The translations under genes and the position numbers were made by a program. A stretch of 35,952 bases of DNA from Ignavibacteriota bacterium. GTDB lineage: Bacteria; Bacteroidota; Ignavibacteria; UBA10030; UBA6906. The notes under the pieces are model-generated. The model saw nothing but the letters and a program-made list of their open reading frames with translations. It was not told where the DNA came from and ran no database searches. Position 1 is the stretch's first letter; each line of letters starts with the position of its first letter. Where the stretch lies: the NCBI GenBank assembly GCA_003157485.1, contig PMJQ01000215.1, forward strand, positions 1-35,952, given 5' to 3'. Shown here in pieces: positions 3,146 through 6,467 of the stretch.

Positions 3146-4303
3146 TCACATCATCCGTTCCGCCAGTTGAAAAGCTCTCACCTTTAACCTGTCTCCTCCA
3201 CCGAACCATATGGATTCCAGGCGGGCAGCGGGATCACCCTCCATCACGTGATCTGTGTACTCCGTAACACAGTTGAACGCCCCCCAGAGCGTGCCGCGTG
3301 AAAGATCGGCGCCCTGACCGGACTCATAAAGGTCCAGGAATGTGTTCCTGATTCCGATGATCTTCGCCGTGTCCTCACCCCCTGCGCCATCCGGCACCAG
3401 TGCATTTACATAGTCCAGGAGCTGCTTTTCGCTGATCTTTGTGCGGGCCATATGATTGAAACAGGCGTCAAGCTTCTCGTAAAGATGATCTGTTAATCCG
3501 AGCAATGAAAGCGCCTGATCCTCCGATGCACCTGATGTCTGACGGAGGGTGATATCACCCGCACCTTGCAGTACAGCGGTGAGCGTATTATTGCACACAA
3601 CGCGGATAGGCATGATCTTTACCCGAACATTCAGGCTGCCTGTGTGGCTGTTTGAGAGCAACAGGTATCTGTCAACAATGTCTCTTCCGTTTACCTTGAT
3701 GAATCCCGGCAGCTTCGCCAGGATCCAGATGCGTTCACCCCGCCCGATCATCCCGGCTGTTTCAAATACCATCTCATCGGTGCTGATCAGATTGTCGAGA
3801 CATCTGAACGCGTCCCTGTTTTGGACCGGCTCACAGTCATCTTCAACAATCCCCAGCACATCGCCTGTATCCGTTCGCACAGTTACCCAGCGGTCCACCA
3901 CATCGTCGACATGCTTTCGGCGAACAAACTCCCTCATCGGCCTCTTGACCACGGTATAGTCTAACCCAGCGGCTTCAATTGCTTCCTTTGCTGATGCCGG
4001 ATTATCCAATTCGATCCCAGCTTCGTGCCACGGGTGTTGTGCCACTCCGGGATAGGGGGATGGGGTCCGTGGAATTCGGAAGTGTTGCGCCCGAAGGGTC
4101 TTCGCGGAGACAGTCGATCGGTATAGCGGGTGGCCGACTCTAAGAATTGTATAGAGCGGAAAGCAAATTTCTCCCGTTTGAGTTCTTTGCCATCCGAGGA
4201 ATATGACTTCTTGACCGTGAGTTGCCGACTTCGGGATCTCGTCCTGAGGAGGACGGGGCACGTTCAGCGTGTCGGTTCCGCCTCGAGATTGCTTCCTGAA
4301 CAT
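3146..4303 (-). CDS. DUF932 (phage/plasmid-like, TIGR03299-type) protein
   Basis: I choose the ATG at 4303 rather than the TTG at 4351. It is preceded by CGGAGG at ideal spacing, and the extra 16 residues look like leader sequence. The resulting 385-residue protein matches the DUF932 pattern: a variable N-terminus, a core with VLGIVEDDCEPVQNRDAFRCLDN, then MIGRGERIWILAKLPGFIKV, a segment like IRVVCNNTL, and a C-terminal GTLWGAFNCVTEYTDH followed by ARLESIWFGGGDRL. DUF932 proteins occur mainly on plasmids, phages and integrated elements, and their biochemical role is unknown. The 34-bp element shared with the DksA/ECF operon lies about 100 bp upstream, so this gene may belong to that sigma factor's regulon. 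A stump of a second copy lies at 6171-6299. Confidence 0.85.
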   Translation of the reverse strand: MFRKQSRGGTDTLNVPRPPQDEIPKSATHGQEVIFLGWQRTQTGEICFPLYTILRVGHPLYRSTVSAKTLRAQHFRIPRTPSPYPGVAQHPWHEAGIELDNPASAKEAIEAAGLDYTVVKRPMREFVRRKHVDDVVDRWVTVRTDTGDVLGIVEDDCEPVQNRDAFRCLDNLISTDEMVFETAGMIGRGERIWILAKLPGFIKVNGRDIVDRYLLLSNSHTGSLNVRVKIMPIRVVCNNTLTAVLQGAGDITLRQTSGASEDQALSLLGLTDHLYEKLDACFNHMARTKISEKQLLDYVNALVPDGAGGEDTAKIIGIRNTFLDLYESGQGADLSRGTLWGAFNCVTEYTDHVMEGDPAARLESIWFGGGDRLKVRAFQLAERMM

Positions 4304-4403
4304 GAAGGCCTCCGTGGGACCAACCCACTCCGATTCCATCGCGCGGGGCAAGGGGGGAAAAACCCCCGTTGCTCAATATGTTACCACTGATTGTTCATAA
4401 GTC

Positions 4404-4437
4404 ACATCAACCCAAAGAATGAAAAAGGGATTAATCC
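4404..4437 (-). promoter_or_regulatory. 34-bp shared upstream element, copy 1 (before DUF932)
   Basis: On the plus strand the element starts ACATCAACCCAAAGA and ends AAGGGATTAATCC. It matches copy 2 at 5610-5643 at 32 of 34 positions. The core GGATTAATCC is a perfect 10-bp palindrome. Both copies lie about 100-130 bp upstream of a minus-strand start codon, here the DUF932 gene. Given the ECF sigma factor between them, a sigma-specific promoter or an operator is a reasonable inference. Confidence 0.55.
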
Positions 4438-4491
4438 TCCCGGGGAATCAGGCGGAAGCAGCTCAAAAACGCGGAATTGGAGGGGGCATGA

Positions 4492-5052
4492 TCACGATAC
4501 AACCCTGTAACCGGCTTCACGGGCGTACCCTGTCAGCCGTCTTGCGAGCATGCCTCTCCCTCGATGAAGTCTGGAACGGACGGTTCCGAGCGGCACATGC
4601 AGGAACTCTGCTATCTCTTCATATGGATGACCTTCGATGTCGCTCAGGATGACTGCCGTCTGAAAAACAAGGGGAAGGCCCTGAAGAGCGGTCATCACTT
4701 CATCCCCTATGTTTCGGGAATGCGGATCGACACTGGAGCTCCCGGCCAGAAGGCCTCGTGTCGGCAACTGATACCTGGCTATATTTTCCGGGCCCGAATG
4801 CGCGGCGTCATCATCGAAATCCATCAGGATCGGCTGCCGCTGCCGGCTCCGGTATGCATTGATGAAAGAGTACCTGCAGATCTTGAACAACCACGCCTTG
4901 CAGTTGGTCCCCTGGCGGAACATTTCAAAATGGATGAAGGCCTTCAACATCGTCTCCTGGACAAGGTCTCTGGACCAATGGACGTCGTGGCAGAGCCCGT
5001 AGGCAAATCTCTCCAGCGCTTCCATATGTGGAATTGCGTCGCGTTCGAACAT
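4492..5052 (-). CDS. ECF-family RNA polymerase sigma factor
   Basis: The ORF track runs to 5412, but that N-terminus overlaps the DksA-like gene in another frame. The family start is close to MFERDAIPHMEALERFAYGL, so I use the ATG at 5052 (186 residues). A TTG 24 nt further upstream cannot be excluded, and neither has a strong Shine-Dalgarno. Region sigma-2 is clear at about residues 10-75 (DLVQETMLKAF, then KAWLFKICRYSFINAYR). Region sigma-4 is clear at about 125-180 (ALQGLPLVFQTAVIL, then YEEIAEFLHVPLGTVRSRLHRGR). ECF factors redirect RNA polymerase to a few promoters, usually including their own. The gene follows the TraR/DksA-like gene by about 43 nt, so the two are probably cotranscribed. 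No typical anti-sigma factor is adjacent. Confidence 0.9.
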   Translation of the reverse strand: MFERDAIPHMEALERFAYGLCHDVHWSRDLVQETMLKAFIHFEMFRQGTNCKAWLFKICRYSFINAYRSRQRQPILMDFDDDAAHSGPENIARYQLPTRGLLAGSSSVDPHSRNIGDEVMTALQGLPLVFQTAVILSDIEGHPYEEIAEFLHVPLGTVRSRLHRGRGMLARRLTGYAREAGYRVVS

Positions 5053-5095
5053 CTCAGACGTGTTGCTCAACAGGTCACCGGGCGTTGTTTGAACT

Positions 5096-5482
5096 TTAAG
5101 AAAGGTGAAGGCGCCCCTGGCAGGGTGTCCTCTCAAATTCCGGGTACACAGATTCAGAGACTTCGTGAACGGGACTACTGGAGTGACGCTCACAGTCGGG
5201 GCACACACTTCTGGCCGGATCGCGCAGGAGAAGTGACCATCCAATCCGGGACTTGCACGCGGAGCATTTCCCGAACGTCCCGTCCTGAAGCCGGTCGAGA
5301 GCACCGGACAACTCGTCGAGTCTCGGGTCACTGCCGAGAGAAAGAAGGGAACCGAGTTCATTGTTTGAAAATCCGTCGATCGAACGGGCCCCCCCGGGCA
5401 ACTCAATATCACAGCACTCCTTCAATCGATCAACCAGAAGCGCTATGATTGAACGTCTCATGACAAGCCGGTATACCTTCAT
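5096..5482 (-). CDS. TraR/DksA-type C4 zinc-finger protein
   Basis: The 128-residue protein has the DksA/TraR zinc-binding signature C73-x2-C76-x17-C94-x2-C97 in the usual sequence setting (LQDGTFGKCSACKSRI, then DPARSVCPDC). The N-terminal helical part is shorter than in E. coli DksA. I do not see the acidic coiled-coil-tip motif that acts in the RNA polymerase secondary channel. A strong Shine-Dalgarno (GGGAGG, 10 nt from the ATG) fixes the start at 5482. Proteins of this family bind RNA polymerase and change promoter selectivity. Here it is the first gene of a likely operon with the ECF sigma factor, where an anti-sigma gene would often sit. Copy 2 of the 34-bp element lies about 130 bp upstream. 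Confidence 0.85.
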   Translation of the reverse strand: MKVYRLVMRRSIIALLVDRLKECCDIELPGGARSIDGFSNNELGSLLSLGSDPRLDELSGALDRLQDGTFGKCSACKSRIGWSLLLRDPARSVCPDCERHSSSPVHEVSESVYPEFERTPCQGRLHLS

Positions 5483-5609
5483 AATTGATCAACCTCCCTG
5501 CAGCGGGTTGACGCTTAGTGACAGGATGAAATGCCACCCTCCGGACAGGCAAAGAAGCGCTTCTGCCCTTGCGGGACACCAGAAAAATACAGATTCGCGT
5601 CAGGGATTT

Positions 5610-5643
5610 ACATCAACCCAAAGATTGGAAAAGGGATTAATCC
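5610..5643 (-). promoter_or_regulatory. 34-bp shared upstream element, copy 2 (before DksA/ECF pair)
   Basis: This is the second copy of the element at 4404-4437, with two mismatches over 34 positions and no clear similarity outside it. Here the palindrome extends to 12 bp (GGGATTAATCCC at 5633-5644). It lies upstream of the DksA-like/ECF operon on the minus strand, as expected for an autoregulated ECF promoter or a shared operator. Which bases would be the -35 and -10 elements cannot be settled by eye. Confidence 0.55.
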
Positions 5644-5701
5644 CTTTCCGAGGGGGGGGACTGAGGAAGGATATCACGACACACGCCCGATCATTTCATT
5701 T

Positions 5702-6100
5702 TCATTTCTGAAGTCCATGTACCGAGGCCGGTCCTGACAATAACCCGGCTACTCCTCCAAGCAAAACACCGATTTCAAACGGGAGTGCGAGAAACTTGTC
5801 CATGCCCTTCCGCTTAAGATCCGCTATCCACTCTTCGTCACTATATCCGGAAAGAACCATGATGCGTGTCATTGGCCGCCGCGATTTTATCCCCGGAACC
5901 GCACTCAGGATCTGAACGGGGTTGAGACTGGTGTTCGTAACAATAACTAAATCACACTGGCTGTCCCCGCGGCCATCGGCGACATACGAACCCTCAATTG
6001 TTACACGGTAGCCGTTTGCCCGAAGTACCTCTTCGATACACGGCCCGATTTCCCGCTTCTCCGCAATGACCAGAATGTTGTGAATCGTCTCACCCCCCAT
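5702..6100 (-). CDS. Degenerate receiver-domain (CheY-like) protein
   Basis: The 132-residue protein has the size and strand pattern of a stand-alone receiver: HNILVIAEKREIGPCIEEVL, CDLVIVTNTSL, TRIMVLSGYSDEEW, then DKFLALPFEI. The key residues are altered. The acidic pair after strand 1 is AE rather than DD or ED. The phospho-acceptor position at the end of strand 3 is T55 rather than Asp. The conserved Lys before the Pro-Phe is L106, while the strand-4 Ser is kept. It is therefore probably a phosphorylation-independent pseudo-receiver that acts through protein contacts. It sits upstream of the DksA/ECF operon on the same strand, separated by the promoter region with the 34-bp element. Confidence 0.65.
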   Translation of the reverse strand: MGGETIHNILVIAEKREIGPCIEEVLRANGYRVTIEGSYVADGRGDSQCDLVIVTNTSLNPVQILSAVPGIKSRRPMTRIMVLSGYSDEEWIADLKRKGMDKFLALPFEIGVLLGGVAGLLSGPASVHGLQK

Positions 6101-6467
6101 GAAGGACGGAGCCGGTATCTGAATTGAACACCGGCGCTGTATGCCGATGGACGAGTTGTTGCCAACCGAACTACATCAGTCGCTCAACCAGCGGAAACGC
6201 TTTCCGATTCAATTGATCGCCCCGGCCGGACCAGATTGATTCCAGGCGGTTTGATGGATTAATTTCCAGCGCATGGTCAGTGTATTCCGCGACACAAAAG
6301 AGCGATAGGTGGAGTAAGGAGAAGGCCAAACGCCCCTGCGAGGAAAAGGTTGCAAACTACGGCGGGAGCGTCGAGACCGTGGTCAGGCCCTGCGTGACTG
6401 ACGTCAGATTCTTTCATACGCCCTGCGACATTTGTTCAGGGAGCGGGGTTGAACGAGCGGGAGAGGG
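6101..6467. other. Gene-poor stretch holding the DUF932 stump
   Basis: Apart from the DUF932 fragment at 6171-6299, I see no gene in this 367-bp stretch. The plus-strand ORF 6280-6609 mostly runs antisense to the zinc-ribbon end of the TatA-like gene and looks spurious. The palindrome TGACGTCA occurs near 6400 without obvious context. Confidence 0.4.
6171..6299 (-). pseudogene. 3' fragment of a second DUF932 gene
   Basis: Translating the minus strand from 6299 gives FCVAEYTDHALE, later NRLESIWSGRGDQL, ending ERLM at a TAG (6171-6173). It aligns without gaps to the last 42 residues of the DUF932 protein at 3146-4303, about 25 of 42 identical by eye. The conserved blocks EYTDH, RLESIW and AF-x-L-x-ER are shared. 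Upstream of 6299 the similarity stops at once and no open frame continues, so the first roughly 340 codons are missing. The divergence level indicates an old paralogue or a copy from a related element, not a recent duplication. Confidence 0.8.

Follow-up and report, generated by a model that had tools for sequence, protein, structure and literature searches.

The window analysed here, the whole stretch of 35,952 nucleotides that constitutes contig C206 of a 4.1-Mb draft genome, raises the question of why two nearly identical 34-bp elements precede two minus-strand genes and which protein reads them. The elements, at 4404–4437 and 5610–5643, are identical at 32 of 34 positions, and the chance expectation of such a pair in 36 kb was estimated at about 1e-8. 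Read on the minus strand, the sense of the genes, they are GGATTAATCCCTTTTTCATTCTTTGGGTTGATGT (4404–4437) and GGATTAATCCCTTTTCCAATCTTTGGGTTGATGT (5610–5643). The initial annotation had placed them about 100–130 bp upstream of two minus-strand starts, and so they are: the gene-proximal edge of the first lies 101 nt upstream of the DUF932 ATG at 4303 and that of the second 128 nt upstream of the DksA-like ATG at 5482, and both start codons have a good Shine-Dalgarno sequence. The features of the region are the following:

3146–4303, minus strand: DUF932 gene, the predicted target of box 1 (PF06067; TIGR03299, phage/plasmid-like protein).
4378–4383, minus strand: −10 hexamer TAACAT, at the consensus offset of 55 from the start of box 1.
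4404–4438, minus strand: box 1, the putative activator-type box of the DUF932 promoter, AGGATTAATCCCTTTTTCATTCTTTGGGTTGATGT; PWM score 42.4 against a null maximum of −2.7.
4492–5112, minus strand: ECF sigma factor (regions 2 and 4; assigned by domains and tree), gene 2 of the box-2 operon, start approximate.
5096–5482, minus strand: DksA/TraR-like small zinc-finger protein (CxxC...CxxC), gene 1 of the box-2 operon; matches to DksA models lie below cut-offs.
5584–5589, minus strand: −10 hexamer TATTTT, at the consensus offset of 55 from the start of box 2.
5610–5644, minus strand: box 2, the promoter box of the DksA-like/ECF operon, GGGATTAATCCCTTTTCCAATCTTTGGGTTGATGT; PWM score 35.3.
6174–6317, minus strand: DUF932 remnant (residues 338–385) upstream of the DksA-like operon, found by sequence comparison.

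The DksA-like gene overlaps at its end with the ECF frame. As the best score against the curated DksA/TraR model was 22.4 bits (cut-off 105), covering C-terminal residues 52–99 only, and no Pfam match was found for this protein, we use "DksA-like" only as a works-like label. Directly upstream of box 2, at 5702–6100 on the minus strand, an ORF encodes a lone receiver-like protein that weakly resembles NtrC-type receivers.

One account of the pair would be that it arose by recent local duplication and regulates nothing. The DUF932 remnant at 6174–6317 does show local duplication in the history of the region; in G001 a DUF932 fragment likewise lies immediately upstream of the DksA-like gene. Outside the boxes, however, the two window promoters agree no better than by chance (6 of 40 positions upstream, 19 of 66 downstream), so that the similarity does stop at the element edges, as had been claimed. 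Moreover, homologues of the DksA-like and DUF932 genes have the box in front of them in other species and genera, as do unrelated genes, and we regard the duplication account as refuted by this distribution within and across genomes, giving it next to no credence. The hexamer TAnnnT occurs at the identical offset, 55 nt from the box start, in both window copies, and the shared unit therefore extends functionally past the 34 bp. An Rfam search of the window found no RNA families, and thus a known RNA element is not indicated. The palindrome GGATTAATCC, which the initial annotation had taken for the core, is indeed intact in both copies; but it is present in just 8 of 156 distinct boxes and is therefore a local variant rather than a conserved core. 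The genome has a fourth GGATTAATCC, at L002, which does not belong to a box.

We then asked how widely the element occurs. A search of the genome with the 34-mer, allowing three mismatches, returned the two known copies only; the box family surfaced only after the pattern was relaxed and homologous promoters were used. A third copy in the same genome precedes an OmpA-family gene, and a profile built from the first copies matched promoters in front of DUF932 homologues across the family, and in front of DksA-like orthologues in two genomes of the same genus. With the relaxed pattern, G030 had 24 hits and the window's own genome 13, where the reversed control had 1 and 0, respectively; the family-fitted pattern gave 23 boxes in the own genome versus 0 for its reversed control. 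Searching the genome and its relatives and listing the genes downstream, as the initial annotation had suggested, thus yielded 23 boxes at home and 156 distinct ones over all loci fetched across relatives. The element stands at many unrelated sites, before many different genes, which is what the initial annotation had said would refute its proposal, and the earlier idea of DUF932 as its dedicated target was given up. In a scan of the phylum the box was confined to the class, with the other classes at control level. In many draft genomes the hits fall mostly on one strand, and on islands tens of kilobases long (G030:C2, G058:C64, G092:C2 and G367:C7) the boxes are clustered and nearly all co-oriented.

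The enlarged family defined the promoter more closely. Its consensus is roughly AAGGATTARYTMCTYTTTCATCCYTTYGGNCGATT, followed by 18–19 nt and a TAnnnT −10 hexamer; a logo of 92 instances reads RRGGATTARYTMCTYTTTCATCCYTTYGGNCGATT, 18–19 nt, GGTATNCTT. Among the 156 distinct boxes, TAnnnT lies at offset 55 in 97 and at offset 54 in 28 (together 125/156), with single digits at other offsets. The box itself comprises about 34 near-contiguous conserved positions at approximately −67 to −34; the −10 is conserved (GGTATNCT-like), and there is no good −35. By general promoter knowledge, a box and a −10 without a clear −35 would be the layout of an activator-dependent primary-sigma promoter. The symmetry of the box is ambiguous, since it can be drawn as an inverted repeat, AGGATTAA-N7-TTCATCCT, or, nearly as strongly, as a 10-bp direct repeat, TCCTTT. 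An OmpR/PhoB-type reading of the direct repeat was considered and was no longer favoured after a NarL-type regulator emerged, the repeat symmetry being still ambiguous. A reading of GGATTAA and CGATT as the −35 and −10 of an ECF promoter was dropped, as the bases between them are as conserved as the ends and the −10 lies further downstream.

The initial annotation had suggested that the ECF factor reads the element as its own promoter and that DUF932 may be its dedicated target. This proposal would fit the position of the ECF gene as gene 2 of a boxed operon, and among 42 ECF proteins compared, five are encoded with a box directly upstream, which resembles autoregulation. In the tree, however, these five fall into two clades, neither of which includes the window ECF, and no box was found upstream of the closest relatives of the window ECF (G001, G002, G003 and the own paralogue on C234). 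Conversely, in G001 and G003, both of the same genus, the box lies upstream of the DksA-like orthologue and no ECF gene is adjacent. The clade of the window ECF is present in G017 and G019, which have no strict-pattern box, and no ECF homologue was found at the class-level loci that combine the box with the regulator described below. A protein scan for ECF relatives recovered one locus only, in a MAG of the same genus. Finally, the box promoters did not show the bipartite −35/−10 with a spacer of about 16–17 nt that ECF promoters have; instead, a TATNCT-like −10 lies 18–19 nt past the box, unlike an ECF pair. We consider it very unlikely that the ECF factor reads the element; most plausibly its gene has come to lie in a boxed operon, which makes the factor a putative target and not the reader. 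Three parts of the earlier proposal stood: the element is under selection, it sits in promoters, and it points to common control of the DksA-like/ECF operon and DUF932. The own paralogue (L042, G000:C234:52265-52828) is 65% identical to the window ECF, has no box, and has a cupredoxin gene and a gene for an XRE-plus-receiver protein as neighbours.

Most boxes in the own genome precede a gene start. Behind them stand two DUF932 genes, two genes for BON-domain proteins and genes for CsbD, OmpA and a KaiC-type ATPase. Others encode phosphoglucomutase, a sigma-54 activator, a radical SAM protein that binds B12 and carries DUF4070, a protein with ASH/HYDIN-type Ig-like domains and several secreted proteins without a family. 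In relatives they encode CsbD, ECF sigma factors, UspA-like, DUF3185 and DUF3494-like proteins, DUF4398-like lipoproteins, response regulators, a hybrid histidine kinase and small proteins similar to the N-terminal portion of the DUF932 protein, where names ending in "-like" without a Pfam hit were assigned by reading the sequence. Typical stress genes recur downstream of boxes (CsbD, BON, UspA-like, KaiC-like, OmpA and DUF3185), and the boxed genes thus look like a stress-type set that would be induced by stress. The lone small proteins behind boxes (L155, L161, L187 and L095, in G030, G058, G010 and G032) match only residues ~20–87 of the window DUF932 protein; the DUF932 N-terminal domain appears to stand alone there, as if functioning on its own. 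In G030 a receiver-HisKA-HATPase protein (L156:16096-17256) is itself behind a box, and kinase feedback on the regulon is possible.

To find a candidate reader, we clustered the proteins of 13 islands bearing boxes or ECF genes. A NarL/VraR-type response regulator was present in 10 of the 13. Among dedicated DNA-binding regulators it was the most frequent family there, although other transcription factors were profiled less exhaustively than this one. The protein has Response_reg and GerE (LuxR-type helix-turn-helix) domains, both above Pfam cut-offs, and its nearest solved structures are VraR, NarL and DevR. At the order level, with presence called at E < 1e-50, 30 genomes with the regulator (the own genome included) gave 198 box-pattern hits versus 19 for the control; 30 genomes without it gave 44 versus 29. 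An independent test used 80 genomes of the same class, sorted solely by box hits in the phylum-wide scan: the regulator was found in 15 of 17 box-positive genomes versus 2 of 63 box-negative ones (Fisher p 2.6e-12, a value that overstates the number of independent events, as the 80 genomes are mutually related).

The boxes also lie next to the regulator gene. A box was found downstream of it on the same strand at 23 of 30 order-level loci and at 17 of 24 class-level loci, the latter excluded from profile building, mostly at a distance of 30–250 nt. These regulator-adjacent boxes scored 25–49, and the best of 180 reversed control windows scored −2.7. The own genome has two copies of the regulator, one of which (C84:57068-57706) has a box 104 nt downstream, and in G019 a more divergent box adjoins the regulator gene. 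In the receiver alignment, the phospho-acceptor Asp56 and Lys106 are invariant, and the Ser/Thr switch position is an invariant glycine, Gly84; judging from this residue, activation of the regulator may be atypical and need not be driven by phosphorylation.

This association might arise in another way, with the box read by a different transcription factor and the NarL-type regulator a mere co-resident of the same gene islands. Boxes and regulator do cluster in the same islands, so their adjacency could reflect co-inheritance in shared islands instead of recognition; in addition, no box lies within 450 nt of the regulator gene at a few loci, and in two class genomes with pattern hits, G118 and G204, the regulator was absent at the threshold used. 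Against this stand the near one-to-one co-occurrence of regulator and box across the 80 class genomes, the consistent order of regulator and then box across families, and the lack in the islands of an equally frequent dedicated regulator family. We therefore hold a different reader to be unlikely, though less so than the ECF factor.

We propose instead, with reasonable confidence, that the box is bound by the NarL/VraR-type response regulator, which would activate a class-wide stress-type regulon at primary-sigma promoters, with the ECF factor among its targets. The box would be the binding site of a transcription activator upstream of a primary-sigma promoter, and the regulator would most likely bind it, perhaps by way of the inverted repeat AGGATTAA-N7-TTCATCCT. 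Once bound, it would recruit RNA polymerase and so switch on a large stress-type regulon common to the class Ignavibacteria. In the own genome this regulon would have approximately 23 boxed sites, among them those of the DUF932 gene and of the DksA-like/ECF operon. From the sequences we infer binding and activation by this regulator, and a stress signal upstream of it.

Known systems offer parallels on several sides. By its domains the candidate is a member of the NarL/FixJ family, sharing the receiver and the LuxR-type helix-turn-helix with NarL, VraR and DevR/DosR, and the predicted regulon would work like regulons of that family. In the DevR dormancy regulons (compare PMC5069765), one regulator likewise acts through a short box that recurs in front of many scattered targets. 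NarL differs in having Ser at the receiver position where the Ignavibacteria candidate has Gly. The targets overlap in kind with those of general stress responses (Bacillus sigma-B, proteobacterial sigma-S and alphaproteobacterial EcfG; PMC7083833): CsbD, BON/OsmY-like, universal stress and ferritin-like proteins are encoded in the box islands, and CsbD is a stress factor elsewhere too (PMC10294668). In contrast, sigma-B, sigma-S and EcfG use the −35/−10 of an alternative sigma factor, whereas the Ignavibacteria promoters look like an activator box with a primary-sigma −10. Autoregulated ECF promoters are alike in that an ECF gene lies in the boxed operon, and unlike in that the box is independent of ECF clade and lacks ECF promoter spacing. 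A broader idea, which we raise tentatively and hold with some doubt, is that in Ignavibacteria one NarL-type regulator, whose receiver is atypical in having Gly at the Ser/Thr switch, takes the place of an alternative sigma factor at the head of the general stress response. It would act on primary-sigma promoters, and ECF sigma and DksA-like factors would form a second tier among its targets.

In the literature searched, we found no description of the box sequence, its class-wide distribution in Ignavibacteria or its target set, nothing on a link between DUF932 and ECF factors, and no earlier description of a stress regulon in this class. A single 34-mer repeat has led to a predicted regulon in which the box is defined by sequence, its spacing to the −10 is fixed, each genome has dozens of targets and a candidate regulator can be named. 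The prediction is directly testable in a cultured member of the class carrying the system. Such a regulon would explain why the ECF/DksA operon and the DUF932, KaiC, CsbD and BON genes recur together, and it would give DUF932, DUF3185 and DUF4070, whose functions are unassigned, a regulatory context.
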